32,446 bases of DNA from an uncultured SAR86 cluster bacterium (GTDB taxonomy: Bacteria; Pseudomonadota; Gammaproteobacteria; Magnimaribacterales; D2472). Location of the stretch: contig CACEDQ010000014.1 in NCBI GenBank assembly GCA_902558375.1, forward strand, positions 1 to 32,446, in the 5' to 3' direction. Positions 8,744 to 13,250 of the stretch are shown piece by piece (the first letter of the stretch is position 1; each line of letters begins with the position of its first letter). The translations under genes were made by a program, and so were the position numbers. Under the pieces are notes generated by a model. The model saw only the letters and a program-made list of their open reading frames with translations, was not told where the DNA came from and made no database searches.

Positions 8744-10060
8744 TTAGTTATTATCTAAATAATCTTTTATAGCAAGCTTGTCTGCTTTCATATCAGCTCT
8801 AAAGGCATTAAAAAGCTTTTGTTTATGGTTAGGCATAAGACCTTTAGCCATATTTTTAATTTGTTGATAAAACCAAGCCATAGCACCAAACGCATTAATA
8901 ACTTTAATTATAGTAAATGGGCTCGATGGAGATAGGATCGAAGGTCCTAAAGACAGAGTCTTTTCAAAACTTGGAAGAACCTCCAGTTCTCCCGCTATCA
9001 TTTTTTTAACACAATAAGGGTCTGCGCATAAAGGTCTTCCAATACCAACTATCTGACAAACATTACTTTGTAGCGCATCCTCAATACCTTCTCTTGTTCT
9101 AAAACCGCCTGTAACCATCAGGGGCAAAGAAACTGCTTTTCTAATATCTTGAGCATATTCAAGAAAATAAGCCTCTCTTGCAATTGTGCTCTCTTTTCTT
9201 TGTTCGCTTCTTTTTGGATTAATGGTTAAATCATCAACACCTATTAATTTTGGTTGCTCATAGGTACCGCCTGAAATTTCTATAATATCCACACCCGCAT
9301 TTTCTAACATTTGAGCGACCTGAATACTTTCATCAGGAGTGAATCCACCCTTTTGGAAGTCTGTAGAATTTAATTTAACTGAAATAGGGAAATCCTCTCC
9401 AACTTCCTTTCTGCATTTATTAATTATTTCTAAATGAACCCTAGCCCTATTTTCAATACTGCCGCCCCAAGCATCAGTTCTATTATTGATATCAGATGAT
9501 AAAAACTCTGATAAAAGATAGCCATGAGCTGAATGAAATTGAACGCCAGTAAAACCTGTTTCTCTAGCAATTTTTGCAGTAAAAACAAACCTATCTATTA
9601 CGTCGAGAATATCTTCTTCTGTCATGGGTGTTGGGGTGCCATAATTCTTACCTGGAATTTTTAATCCAATATTAGATGGAGCCAAGGGTGAAGAATTAAT
9701 TTCACCTGGTGTTTGCCTTCCTGCATGCGAAATTTGCATCCATAACTGCGTATTATCTTTTGTTCCTGCTGCTGACCATGCTTTAAGTGCATCGTATTGC
9801 TCTTTATAGTTATTCTTATCAATCACTACATTTGCAGGACCTTCAAGGTTTTTGCGGTCAATCTGAACATTTCCAGTTAACAGAATACCTATATTGCCTT
9901 CTGCCCACCTATCATAAAGATTTGCATGACCTTGATGAGCTAAATTATCTCCTTTAGCAATACGTTCAGTCATTGCTGCTTTGCAAACTCGATTTTTAAC
10001 AACCTGTCCACATGGCAATATAAAAGACTCATTCATTAAATTTGGCATTTGCTCTCCCAT
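8744..10060 (-). CDS. NADH:flavin oxidoreductase, Old Yellow Enzyme family
   Basis: 438 residues forming an FMN-binding TIM barrel. Visible blocks are NRVCKAAMTE near 23-32, WMQISHAGRQ, FHSAHGYLLSEFLS, NNRTDAWGGSIENRAR, and the C-terminal phosphate-binding region VTGGFRT plus VGIGRPLCADP. Members reduce activated C=C bonds or nitro groups with NAD(P)H. The 2,4-dienoyl-CoA-reductase type has extra Fe-S and FAD domains, which this protein lacks; the tail after about residue 370 is short and helical. An in-frame ATG at codon 5 (MPNLMNE) is an alternative start. An 18-bp near-palindrome sits 29 bases upstream. Confidence 0.88.
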   Translation of the reverse strand: MGEQMPNLMNESFILPCGQVVKNRVCKAAMTERIAKGDNLAHQGHANLYDRWAEGNIGILLTGNVQIDRKNLEGPANVVIDKNNYKEQYDALKAWSAAGTKDNTQLWMQISHAGRQTPGEINSSPLAPSNIGLKIPGKNYGTPTPMTEEDILDVIDRFVFTAKIARETGFTGVQFHSAHGYLLSEFLSSDINNRTDAWGGSIENRARVHLEIINKCRKEVGEDFPISVKLNSTDFQKGGFTPDESIQVAQMLENAGVDIIEISGGTYEQPKLIGVDDLTINPKRSEQRKESTIAREAYFLEYAQDIRKAVSLPLMVTGGFRTREGIEDALQSNVCQIVGIGRPLCADPYCVKKMIAGELEVLPSFEKTLSLGPSILSPSSPFTIIKVINAFGAMAWFYQQIKNMAKGLMPNHKQKLFNAFRADMKADKLAIKDYLDNN

Positions 10061-10088
10061 TGGTACTTAATAATAAACCAATTAACAA

Positions 10089-10106
10089 TATTCTGAATTC
10101 AGTATA
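10089..10106. promoter_or_regulatory. 18-bp near-perfect palindrome, candidate operator
   Basis: The sequence TATTCTGAATTCAGTATA has a perfect 10-bp core (CTGAATTCAG) and three more matching pairs outside a single mismatched pair. It lies between the divergent Old Yellow Enzyme gene and the GST remnant, 29 bases upstream of the former's start. Position and symmetry suit a dimeric TetR- or MarR-type repressor. No such regulator is encoded in this window. Confidence 0.45.
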
Positions 10107-10117
10107 GACTTTTTTCT

Positions 10118-10447
10118 ATGTTCAATGATCCGGTAATTCTTTATGGCTCTAGTATTTCTTATTTTACTGGGAAAATGGAAAATTACTTCAAAGTTAGAGG
10201 TATACCCTATAAAAGAGTAGTTGCTCCTTATCCATCCTTTGAAAAAAAATGAAACAAAAGGCTAAAGGAGCTTCAGAACAAATATCATCAGATGCCTCAA
10301 GATAAAAAAGAAGAAACAAGAAAATTGCCCAGTAAATATGAATGCTGGGAACCATTATGGAGGTATCAAGATTTACCTATGGATACCGCACAAGAAGAAA
10401 AACTCCCCTTCTGGGCAGATAGAAAAATGATTGGAGTTAATGAATAA
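10118..10447 (+). pseudogene. Remnant of a glutathione S-transferase gene
   Basis: An ATG at 10118 opens a frame encoding 44 residues that read like the N-terminal thioredoxin-fold strand and helix of a GST (ILYGSSISYFTGKMENYF, then KVRGIPYKRVVAPYPSF). It stops at a TGA at 10250. The same frame continues without further stops to TAA at 10445-10447, with RLKELQNKYHQMP, KYECWEPLWRYQDLP and PFWADRKMIGVNE, which look like a C-terminal tail. Together they give about 108 residues against roughly 200-250 for a full GST, so most of the middle is missing and one in-frame stop interrupts the rest. It is interpreted as a decayed gene with an internal deletion. The GST assignment rests on the N-terminal part. 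Confidence 0.6.
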
Positions 10448-10512
10448 AATAGTCATAAAAGAAAAAAATAAACTTCTAATTTTTATAAATAAAATGTGTT
10501 TATTTGTATTTT

Positions 10513-10555
10513 TATAATACCTTTATTACTATCATACTAATTTAATAATAAAGGA
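10513..10555 (+). promoter_or_regulatory. Probable -10 box and Shine-Dalgarno of the coiled-coil gene pair
   Basis: A perfect TATAAT (10513-10518) lies 47 bases before the first ATG. AAGGA (10551-10555) ends 9 bases before it, a good ribosome site by the standard of this genome. No convincing -35 hexamer is present at the right distance. Confidence 0.4.
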
Positions 10556-10564
10556 AAACTTTTC

Positions 10565-11290
10565 ATGGCATCAGATAATCCATTAGCAAGACAGGCAAAA
10601 ATTAGCAACGCTTTGATGGTGGCGCAAAGCTTCCAGATGGCAAATATGAATAAAGGTCTTACTAACGTTGCAAGAACAATGGAAAAAAATAACCAAATTC
10701 AAGCTGCTTTATATGGTGTTCAGAATGACATAAAAAAAGTTCAAACAGCTCAACTAAAAGAGGTAATTAAAGCAAATAAATTAAAAGAGTATGAAATTGA
10801 ACAGAACAGGCTTAGGTTCGAACAAGAGCAATCAGAAAAAGAATATATCCGAAGTCAAAGAAATCTAGCATTCGAATTAAAGAACTCCGTTCAAGAAGTT
10901 GAAAAGTCTGATAGCACTGTTCTTGAAAAATATTTCTTCTTGAAGACTTCTCTGGAAGTTTTTGAAGAACTTGATACTGAAAAATTTCAGATAAGTGAAA
11001 TGGAATATTCAAGAGATGCATTTAATTCTATGAATGAAAGTAAAAATAAATATGAGTCTTTGCTTACTGAGAAAGATATTAATGATTTAAATACAATCAA
11101 AAACATAGAATTAGAAGATGAAAATCAATATTTAACAGAAATCAAAGCAAGCTTGAAAAAATTTGAAAAATTTAAGCACTCTTTACAAGAGCTCAGAAAT
11201 ATAAATAGTAAAAATATATCATCATCCTCAACCAAAGTAGTATTAAAGGAAGAGATGAATAATTTTTTAAAAGAATTAAAAAATTTATGA
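10565..11290 (+). CDS. Unknown soluble coiled-coil protein
   Basis: 241 residues matching no family I recognise. There is no signal peptide or membrane segment, so it is probably cytoplasmic. Residues about 1-60 are Asn/Gln/Ala-rich and possibly helical (NPLARQAKISNALMVAQSF). Residues about 60-110 are strongly charged with heptad-like spacing and should form a coiled coil. The middle and C-terminal parts are also predicted helical by eye, with repeated Lys/Glu runs and a Ser-rich link near 218-225. Its stop overlaps the start of the next gene (ATGA, 4 bases), so both are made from one message and the products probably act together. GC is low (about 27% in a sampled line), below most neighbours. 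No enzymatic motif is visible; a structural or scaffold role is possible but unproven. Confidence 0.72.
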   Translation: MASDNPLARQAKISNALMVAQSFQMANMNKGLTNVARTMEKNNQIQAALYGVQNDIKKVQTAQLKEVIKANKLKEYEIEQNRLRFEQEQSEKEYIRSQRNLAFELKNSVQEVEKSDSTVLEKYFFLKTSLEVFEELDTEKFQISEMEYSRDAFNSMNESKNKYESLLTEKDINDLNTIKNIELEDENQYLTEIKASLKKFEKFKHSLQELRNINSKNISSSSTKVVLKEEMNNFLKELKNL

Positions 11291-12414
11291 CAAAGATTAA
11301 AAAATTTATTTGTATAAGTTTTCTTTTCTTGTCTCAGATGATAATTTCACAACCATCATTATCGGAAATAATATCCTCGCAAAATTACTCTAAAAAACTT
11401 TCCCAGCCAATATGCTCTGAATACAAACTATCAGGATCCTTAGAGGAAGCAAATGTACTTGGCATGCTGATTACATTAGGAGCTACAACAATAGGGACAT
11501 TTAGCTGTGCTTTTTACGTGGGCTATGAGGGTAAATATCCAGATGATTGTGATGAATTAAGATGCAGGGTGAATAACCAACAAGCAATTATAAACAATGC
11601 AAAACATGTGATAAATATATCCAATAATTATCTTAATAGCCAAAGTTCTTCAACATCATTAAAAAGAAAGGTGCAGCAAGGATTAGTAAAAATTAATAAG
11701 ACAATGAGTGAATGGCAAAAAGTAACGCCCTCAACACCAATAAATAGAGGCAATGTAAAATTTATTGAACAGAACCTAAATACCCCTCTCGAAAATCTAA
11801 TCATCAAACAGTTTTCAATTTTACCTACTCAATTTAAAAAAGATTATTTCATAAAAGAAGCTGAAAAAGAAAGACGAAGAATTGTTGCTGAGATGGAAAA
11901 ACAAAGAATAGCAGCTGAGAAAGAAAGGAAAAGGTTAGCGGCTGAGAAAGAAAGGAAAAGAATAGAAGCTGAGAAAGAGAGGAAAAGAATAGAAGCTGAG
12001 AGAAAAAGAAAAAGAGCTGAACTTAAACGACTAATGCTAATTATACTCCCAGTCCTAATTCTTCTCATAATAATTACAAACATAAGAAAAAGAAAAAAAA
12101 TAGCGGCTGAGAAAGAAAAAGAGAGAAAAGAAACTGAAAAACAAAAAATAAAAGCACAAAAAAACAAGGAAAAATTTATTGAAGAATTGAATAAGCAAAT
12201 AAATAATTATCAAAAAAAATATTCTGATAAGTTAAGTAATTATCAAAATGAATTTCAAGAAATAACTAAAAAAATTGATGCTGAAGAAAAAGAGTTGATT
12301 GATCTGAAGAGCCGACATCCTAAAATAGAAATGATTGTTTCATCACGAAAAATAGGCGATTCCAACCAAAAGACTATTACAGAAATAAAAAAGCTACTAA
12401 ACAAGCTTAAATAA
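11287..12414 (+). CDS. Unknown membrane-anchored coiled-coil protein with charged repeats
   Basis: 375 residues, family not recognised. Residues 3-25 look like a signal peptide or anchor (KIKKFICISFLFLSQMII). Residues 56-79 are a second hydrophobic stretch ending in FSCAFYVGY. Four Cys (43, 74, 88, 93) cluster around it and could form disulfides. A helical region follows, then a highly basic coiled coil (about 190-245) built of 9-residue repeats AEKERKRIE. A clear transmembrane helix LMLIILPVLILLIIITNI lies at 249-266 with clusters of Arg/Lys on both sides. The C-terminal 105 residues form another Lys/Glu-rich coiled coil. Basic residues on both flanks of the helix make topology ambiguous. 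It is translationally coupled to the preceding coiled-coil gene and ends 15 bases before the tRNA 3' end. Confidence 0.72.
   Translation: MTKIKKFICISFLFLSQMIISQPSLSEIISSQNYSKKLSQPICSEYKLSGSLEEANVLGMLITLGATTIGTFSCAFYVGYEGKYPDDCDELRCRVNNQQAIINNAKHVINISNNYLNSQSSSTSLKRKVQQGLVKINKTMSEWQKVTPSTPINRGNVKFIEQNLNTPLENLIIKQFSILPTQFKKDYFIKEAEKERRRIVAEMEKQRIAAEKERKRLAAEKERKRIEAEKERKRIEAERKRKRAELKRLMLIILPVLILLIIITNIRKRKKIAAEKEKERKETEKQKIKAQKNKEKFIEELNKQINNYQKKYSDKLSNYQNEFQEITKKIDAEEKELIDLKSRHPKIEMIVSSRKIGDSNQKTITEIKKLLNKLK
11887..12021 (+). repeat. 27-bp tandem repeat inside coding sequence
   Basis: Units start at 11887, 11914, 11941, 11968 and 11995, each beginning GCTGAGA. Copies at 11941 and 11968 differ at one base, the copy at 11914 by a few bases, and the outer copies are more diverged and partial. 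Each unit encodes nine residues of the pattern A-E-K-E-R-K-R-I-E. Copy number can change by slippage without breaking the frame. Confidence 0.85.
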
Positions 12415-12429
12415 TAGAACCTATGAAAA

Positions 12430-12506
12430 TGGTGGGCCCGGGAGGACTCGAACCTCCGACCAATGGATTATGAGTCCACTGCTCTAACCAACTGAGCTAC
12501 AGGCCC
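12430..12506 (-). tRNA. tRNA-Ile2 (CAT anticodon, lysidine type)
   Basis: A 77-base cloverleaf on the minus strand with encoded CCA. The acceptor stem is GGGCCTG with CGGGCCC (one T-G wobble), the D arm GCTC/GAGC, the anticodon arm GTGGA-CTCATAA-TCCAT, and the T arm GGAGG-TTCGAGT-CCTCC. The CAT anticodon fits initiator Met, elongator Met or Ile2. The first acceptor pair G1-C72 rules out a typical bacterial initiator. C4-G69 and C5-G68, reported determinants for the lysidine synthase TilS, and similarity to E. coli ileX point to Ile2 reading AUA. As I recall, ileX is also close to rpoD in E. coli, which agrees with this location. Confidence 0.87.
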
Positions 12507-12539
12507 CTTTAATCGATGATATCGAATAGAGAACGAGCA

Positions 12540-12567
12540 ATTATATAAGAATATATAATTTAGGGAA
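12540..12567 (-). promoter_or_regulatory. Candidate tRNA promoter
   Basis: On the minus strand a perfect TATAAT (12540-12545) lies 34 bases upstream of the tRNA 5' end. It is preceded by TTCCCT (12562-12567) at 16-bp spacing, a weak -35. Placement is right for a tRNA promoter; the -35 match is poor. Confidence 0.4.
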
Positions 12568-12611
12568 GCTTTTATCTCTTGAGAATTTTTGAAATAAGTT
12601 ATTATTAGCAA

Positions 12612-13250
12612 ATGATTAATCTTGATGGAGTACAGCCCTTTGCCGAAGGTGGCAACAGAAGATGTTATGTACATCCTGAAAATAGCTATCGCTGTCTGAA
12701 AGTTACTATTCAAGATCAATCAAAGATAGCTAGGCAAAATGCTCCTTGGTATAAAAAATTTAGAAGTGAATCCACATTTGATGACAATATTCGTGAGCAA
12801 AAAGCCTATGCCCAAAGGGCTTTAAAAAAAGATAATCCTGAAACATGGAAACATCTTGCACGATGGCATGGGATGGTTGAAACGTCTATTGGACTGGCAT
12901 CTGAAACCGATTTAATTCGAGACAATCAAAATAACATTGCTATTACATTAGAAAAATACCTCTTCACTTATGGTATTACTGAAGAGATTCAAAAGGCTAT
13001 TAAAGAATTTGAAACATGGTTAAGATCGTCTTTGGTATTAACAAAGAATATTATTCCTCACAATATTGTTCTTGGTTATGAGGATGGAAAAATTGTATTA
13101 AAAATTATTGATGGTCTTGGTTCTAAATCCTATCTGCCCCTGACCCAAATCAGTGATCTGTTTGCAAGAAGGTATGTCGAAAGGAGAATCCAGTTAATGC
13201 ATTCAAGAATTAACTGGGATTTAACCGGTAGAAAAGGTAATTGGAAATAA
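12612..13250 (+). CDS. yrbL: YrbL-family (PhoP-regulated) kinase-like protein
   Basis: 212 residues matching the YrbL/PhoP-reg family. Recognisable blocks are FAEGGNRRCYVHPE near 10-23, CLKVTIQD with the Lys expected in a kinase-like fold, the central AWEHLARWHG-like KHLARWHGMVET, and IIPHNIVLGYEDG followed by IIDGLG, which resemble catalytic and metal-binding loops of small-molecule kinases. In enterobacteria yrbL is PhoPQ-controlled and its biochemical role is unsettled. Here it lies on the plus strand beside the divergent tRNA gene and ends 2 bases from the stop of rpoD, converging on it. Confidence 0.8.
   Translation: MINLDGVQPFAEGGNRRCYVHPENSYRCLKVTIQDQSKIARQNAPWYKKFRSESTFDDNIREQKAYAQRALKKDNPETWKHLARWHGMVETSIGLASETDLIRDNQNNIAITLEKYLFTYGITEEIQKAIKEFETWLRSSLVLTKNIIPHNIVLGYEDGKIVLKIIDGLGSKSYLPLTQISDLFARRYVERRIQLMHSRINWDLTGRKGNWK

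Follow-up and report, generated by a model that had tools for sequence, protein, structure and literature searches.

The window considered here, that is, the whole stretch of DNA that was analysed, comprises 32,446 nucleotides of contig CACEDQ010000014.1 from an uncultured SAR86 cluster bacterium, whose SAR86-type assembly (G000, GCA_902558375.1) spans 1.0 Mb and is 72% complete. Two of its genes, ORF1 and ORF2, were first singled out as an unexplained pair in an initial annotation made from the letters alone. Both reading frames were recovered, and they overlap by the four bases ATGA, as that annotation had it (Table 1). Among the 31 window ORFs taken as genes (mean GC 0.335, sd 0.026), ORF1 has the lowest GC, 0.288, and ORF2 the third lowest, 0.300, in agreement with the earlier remark that the pair is poor in GC. 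A ribosome-site-like AAGGA, judged by eye, is likewise present 5' of ORF1. The TATAAT that had been offered as a signal is indeed found at 10513, but it occurs at chance level, with 11 and 15 copies on the window's two strands; since the hexamer is abundant window-wide and is used by no predicted promoter, we give it no weight. A promoter scan of positions 10000-12700 returned 12 sites versus 11.5 in shuffles, the TATAAT at 10513 being in none of them, and a scan of the same interval for terminators returned none. Folding of a hairpin across the ORF1 ribosome site was not better than in shuffles (z -0.74).

Table 1. Features at and around the ORF1-ORF2 locus, in positions of the window
Feature	Position	Strand	Description
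GST-like gene remnant	10118..10449	+	inner part missing, two ends kept; left flank of cassette; name by reading
Inserted cassette	10450..12425		1,976 bp; ORF1 and ORF2 only; extra relative to nearest relative G014
ORF1	10565..11290	+	241 aa; soluble helical protein
ORF2	11287..12414	+	375 aa; membrane protein
ORF2 signal-peptide-like N-terminus	11287..11364	+	residues 1-26; hydrophobic 7-25 after KIKK; cleavage site guessed by eye
ORF2 outer domain	11392..11856	+	residues 36-190; conserved Cys 43, 74, 88, 93
ORF2 basic 9-residue-repeat coiled coil	11854..12021	+	residues 190-245
ORF2 transmembrane helix	12028..12084	+	residues 248-266; Kyte-Doolittle 2.64
ORF2 C-terminal tail element	12259..12348	+	residues 325-354; also C-terminal in four ORF1-linked proteins elsewhere
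tRNA-Met (CAT)	12430..12506	-	right border of cassette

The layout proposed earlier for ORF2 was confirmed: a signal-like N-terminus, cysteines, a basic repeat coiled coil, one strong transmembrane helix and a coiled-coil tail. Its hydrophobic segments lie at residues 7-25 (1.60), 57-75 (1.61) and 248-266 (2.64), its cysteines at 9, 43, 74, 88 and 93, and the basic coiled coil is underlain by 27-bp (9-residue) DNA repeats from about 11860 to 12010. ORF1 has neither a transmembrane-like segment nor a cysteine, and its model is helical, so that its description as soluble and helical stands. Its AlphaFold model, made from the single sequence, consists of one helix of about 108 residues and then shorter helices (pLDDT 74.8, pTM 0.40); that of ORF2, made from three input sequences, has a pTM of 0.41. 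The two models are too weak to claim a fold. A Foldseek search with ORF1 gave nothing at 0.001 (best E 0.87), and no fold search gave a significant match. Against the MIT, BAG and Vipp1-ESCRT-III folds, VIA-align Z values for ORF1 reach at most 10.6 over 74 residues (rmsd 2.0), which falls inside the range stated by the tool for helical bundles, and the rows for MIT, BAG, 14-3-3 and Vipp1 are probably generic helix bundles. The single PDB sequence match of ORF1, at E 0.05, is a designed bundle and was rejected; the ORF2 outer domain had none.

What are these proteins? They are described by no family in the libraries searched, much as had been surmised. Neither matches Pfam or NCBIfam at the curated cut-off, the best PHROG match (E 0.004) is not convincing, none of the 5027 models of PADLOC-DB 2.0.0 matches either one at E up to 1, and the phage, plasmid and viral collections gave no match to the queries used. 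Weak library matches of the coiled-coil type were set aside. Searches of open-licence PMC papers turned up no description of the pair in titles and abstract beginnings. The general kind, an accessory pair with a membrane-anchored coiled coil, is already known.

The two genes reached this locus together. The nearest relative, G014, was picked by its YrbL protein, the neighbouring gene product, which is 97% identical. Blastn homology between the window and this relative (L046) ends at 10449 (L046 9726) and restarts at 12426 (L046 9724), the two flanking alignments overlapping by 3 bases (AAA), so that the ORF1-ORF2 pair is one insertion unit at the window locus. In G014 the order is a CPBP-like gene, which is missing from the window, an intact 365-aa GST-like gene (L046:8627-9724), tRNA-Met and YrbL, the CPBP and GST names being given by reading. 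The cassette ends 4 bp off the 3' end of tRNA-Met. It holds no integrase of its own and no att duplication, its only plausible genes being ORF1 and ORF2 and the flanking repeat being no longer than 3 bases.

The YrbL search found 23 places, the window's own included, in 22 of 61 genomes; 17 of the other 22 were read; they come from 16 genomes, and two (L047, L061) are short. In 0 of these 17 loci did tblastn find ORF1 or ORF2. tRNA-Met is present in 14 and absent from the stretch in the other three; six of the 17 have an oxidoreductase gene no more than 75 bp away from the tRNA 3' end, and four (L050, L051, L053, L062) have other genes between the tRNA and YrbL. The tRNA-Met neighbourhood is thus a site of gene turnover. 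In G011 (L051), a stretch of about 7 kb with a Phage_integrase-family gene is found between YrbL and the same tRNA-Met. The cassette has the tRNA neighbourhood in common with tRNA-gene integrative elements such as this one, but it is found on the opposite, 3' side of the tRNA, lacks an integrase and has two genes only.

Where else does ORF1 occur? An order-wide profile search matched 7 of 203 genomes, of which three were accepted (G000, G021, G079) and four, at E 0.003-0.009, rejected, two of their loci having been read. In the class sample 4 of 369 genomes matched, namely G000, G021, G343 (1.1e-12) and G433, the last rejected as spurious; among relatives of G343, three of 144 matched (G343, G582, G572); and the phylum sample gave 1 of 190, again G000, and none further. 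In successive searches 3 of 5, 4 of 7 (order) and 1 of 4 (class) matched genomes were dropped as false. Rejected matches include one with no fitting ORF (L003, whose stops are shared by L004), one inside a pheT-like gene (L005), one that is trpD-like (L015), a coiled-coil protein encoded next to a trpS-like gene (L017), two with an internal stop (L016 and L018) and one inside a very long frame (L084), the three gene names being given by reading.

Five kinds of ORF1 locus remain, with G343 and G582 counted as one. In G021, a 251-aa ORF1-like gene overlaps by 4 bases a gene whose 296-aa product has a coiled coil and four hydrophobic segments; a BLASTP match of this product to the window's membrane protein (E 0.013) was set aside, as it covers little besides the repeat coiled coil. 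G079 has a single 382-aa fusion of an ORF1-like part, a 49-residue hydrophobic span and a tail. G343 and G582 have a 506-aa fused frame with a tail and no transmembrane segment, and the G582 copy has one in-frame stop; dN/dS for the two is 0.38. Divergent from the 506-aa gene is a 103-aa gene with two hydrophobic segments (L105:8554-8865 in G343; L108:2089-2400), possibly a separate membrane partner. In G572 the order is reversed: first comes the gene of a tail-bearing 205-aa protein that has two hydrophobic segments, and this gene overlaps a 354-aa ORF1-like gene.

The family is found in members of two SAR86 genera, at three different places. Blastn found the G021 pair in none of the 19 congener loci read, 17 of which show both flanks (of 30 genomes searched, 25 had the flank gene, and loci came from 20 including G021). 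The fused gene of G079 is also absent from all 19 congener loci read, each with both flanks, which abut within about 35 bp (25 genomes, 22 with the flank gene, loci from 20 including G079). Like the window cassette, both are discrete insertions that congeners lack.

One might ask whether these proteins are related at all. The alternative is chance coiled-coil similarity, in which unrelated helical genes of biased composition make up no shared system. A work listed among the references of PMC10907252 warns in its title that convergent coiled coils can mislead HMMER, and shuffles and linkage tests were used for that reason; coiled coils inflate similarity scores, a caveat for the family and tail comparisons alike. 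The composition is indeed biased, the identities among ORF1 relatives are only about 20%, and the tail statistics given below are moderate and partly fail. However, when each of the five members is left out in turn, it outscores all unrelated frames among 2852 drawn from 112 partly overlapping loci. The weakest left-out member, window ORF1, has 20.0 bits versus 13.9 for the best unrelated frame, and 17.5 bits versus 4.8 for the best of 300 composition-preserving shuffles. Profile matches are also rare (beyond the known genomes, 2 of 369, one of them spurious, and 0 further of 190), and gene overlap and fusion recur. We therefore consider chance similarity very improbable, and on these scores regard ORF1 as a member of a small, previously undescribed family.

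Is anything of ORF2 retained along with ORF1? Left out of training, the C-terminal tail element of ORF2 scored 11.2 bits at L=30, a value reached by 0 of 1000 shuffles. With the target at full length and training on the other four members, the window tail was reached by 0, 0, 0 and 3 of 1000 shuffles at L=30, 40, 50 and 70; when it served for training, the window row ended at residue 357, a point chosen after the motif was seen. At the same four lengths the counts were 0 throughout for G343, 0, 0, 3 and 0 for G021, 9, 21, 29 and 0 for G079, and 2, 0, 953 and 0 for G572, while for the controls, G126 and ORF1, 416-957 of 1000 shuffles were as good. Without G572 the window tail is not significant (76, 20 and 405 of 1000 at L=50, 70 and 90), and in an earlier test without G572 the window scored under the best shuffles. 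In the comparison of 2852 frames, run at L=40, the left-out window came first among non-training frames (11.0 vs 8.0), as did G021 (14.1 vs 11.2) and G343 (21.3 vs 17.0); G572 came second (10.7 vs 14.0), and G079 was not among the best 10. The rival that outranked G572, at 11-17 bits, is a spurious antisense frame in L050.

We judge the tail similarity to be moderate, and the evidence for it weaker than that for ORF1. With that grading of the tails, at all five kinds of locus a tail-like C-terminus goes with the ORF1 part, either in fusion with it or on the adjoining protein. It looks as if the core were ORF1 plus tail, with the membrane or outer part swappable. The hydrophobic spans of G079 (49 residues) and G572 (57 residues) were read as hairpins. 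If so, the tail would lie on the cytosolic side at four loci alike, those of the window, G021, G079 and G572. G079 is a caveat here, as it has one non-overlapping hydrophobic segment only, and a single transmembrane helix would put its ORF1-like part and tail on opposite sides of the membrane.

The claim that the pair is a soluble-plus-membrane unit has thus gained support from the single insertion, the overlapping membrane coiled-coil gene of G021, the reversed pair of G572 and the fusions of G079 and G343. It had been proposed that finding one protein regularly apart from the other would speak against a system, and on this point the outcome is divided. ORF1 keeps a tail-bearing partner, but the outer domain of ORF2 does occur away from ORF1, in loci of the type of G126, from another SAR86 lineage. 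In the order this domain is found in 2 of 199 genomes, G000 and G126 (E 2e-34), and in the class sample in 1 of 369, its own genome, with no further match. A search of genome contigs found three loci, all of the G126 type (CACPDB010000002, DCQT01000046, BPAJ01000003). One locus of this type, L021, has many broken frames. Another (L020, DCQT01000046) is filed as Bacteriovoracaceae; two of its genes are 86 and 96% protein-identical to a SAR86 locus, and it is probably misbinned.

The G126-type pair has a 289-aa Cys-containing protein first and a 535-aa membrane protein second. Like the window pair, it combines an ORF2-like outer domain with four cysteines, a coiled coil, a transmembrane segment and a 4-base overlap; the outer domains are 38% identical, all four cysteines being kept, and dN/dS for the ORF2 relative is 0.24. 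Unlike the window pair, its partner is not recognisably related to ORF1, and its membrane protein has a longer C-terminal part in which a tail is undetectable (816-954 of 1000 shuffles as good in an earlier test, 416-936 in a later one). It also differs in sitting in a larger island (L009:3257-18083) with genes for a KAP NTPase (PifA model, 6e-31), WYL, RmuC and MkoA-like proteins and an AAA_11/12 helicase that also carries an RNase_H_2 domain. A 697-aa gene of this island has a C-terminal part that may resemble a pentameric ligand-gated channel (YPFDKQ, several hydrophobic segments; no Pfam match).

How might the pair work? A scenario is that a self-contained accessory cassette was gained as one unit beside tRNA-Met. 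ORF2 would be an inner-membrane protein with its Cys-containing helical domain and coiled coil exported, one transmembrane helix, and a coiled-coil tail in the cytosol. ORF1 would be a cytosolic helical protein working with that tail, for which the tail may serve as the dock. With the outer part of ORF2 as sensor or anchor, the pair would act at the inner membrane and connect a sensor on the envelope side with a helical adaptor or effector in the cytosol. What the data show is the single insertion unit and the joint occurrence of ORF1-like with tail-like parts next to varying membrane parts; we infer the topology, the physical docking of ORF1 on the tail, the direction of signalling and the role.

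Our leading reading, to which we give slightly less than an even chance, is that ORF1-ORF2 is a membrane-anchored two-part accessory module with phage defence as its likeliest single role. The clean insertion, the absences in congeners, the ORF1 and tail scores and, as signs of selection, the dN/dS values count in its favour; the G343/G582 fusion without a transmembrane segment, the weakness of both models and the blank in the phage, plasmid and viral collections count against it. Defence is favoured by the PD-T4-3-like and DUF2779 genes beside the G572 pair, the G126 island, the G021 methyltransferase, the patchy occurrence and the spread as cassettes. The DUF2779 gene adjoins the G572 pair, and the PD-T4-3-like gene lies 1.0 kb from it (PADLOC 5.8e-21; Pfam GIY-YIG 26.7 bits against a cut-off of 27); a passage in PMC12923530 describes PD-T4-3 as a single-component GIY-YIG defence nuclease. 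The C5 DNA methyltransferase gene of G021 (L008:16474-17439) is 5.7 kb from the ORF1-like pair. This is guilt by association with neighbours in some relatives, and G126 shares no more than the outer domain. The suggestion of an accessory defence module finds an echo in those neighbours, but PADLOC matched neither the pair nor the three window neighbours scanned; one G079 neighbour scanned gave no match either. Matches of the G572 membrane protein to LeoA and DndD models (8e-4 and 0.005) were taken as coiled-coil noise. Upstream of the same reversed pair is a 118-aa gene of near-identical Gly/Ser-rich repeats (L109:3132-3488).

Zorya offers a comparison. Its ZorA/ZorB pair includes a membrane protein with a long coiled coil, as in ORF2, and the G343 relative weakly matches the ZorA3 model (E 9e-4). 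However, the MotA/ExbB-type domain of ZorA and the OmpA-type domain of ZorB have no match in ORF1 or ORF2, either in Pfam or, at E up to 1, in PADLOC.

On structural grounds a scaffold or tether is plausible, and one might picture an envelope scaffold or stress module that has no defence function, ORF2 spanning the inner membrane and ORF1 forming a coiled-coil layer beneath. The long helices, the conserved cysteines in a probably exported domain and the PADLOC blank in the four scanned neighbours would fit. Yet ORF1 is present in 3 of 203 order genomes, a patchiness unusual for housekeeping, and defence-like genes lie near G572, G126 and, at 5.7 kb, G021; we regard this alternative as rather unlikely. 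It is also conceivable that the two genes, small, overlapping and inserted together, are a toxin-antitoxin-like pair, in which ORF1 holds a toxic membrane protein, ORF2, in check. But G079 and G343 carry both parts on a single polypeptide, ORF2 is a large protein whose outer domain is conserved, and the gene order differs in G572, so that such a pair seems improbable.

To return to the two-part module, a bolder version of it, which we put forward as doubtful, is a modular system, previously undescribed, that would serve marine gammaproteobacteria with small genomes against phages (or in envelope surveillance). In it a conserved cytosolic core of ORF1 and tail would be combined with an exchangeable membrane or periplasmic sensor, and it would spread as cassettes of just one or two genes. 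SAR86 bacteria are both abundant and streamlined. Should the core bind in the way the fusions suggest, these loci would make up a family, open to testing, of accessory systems that are tethered to the membrane and have exchangeable outer parts. If the role is not defence, the pair would still illustrate how small genomes take up single cassettes that lack mobility genes, at tRNA and housekeeping loci.
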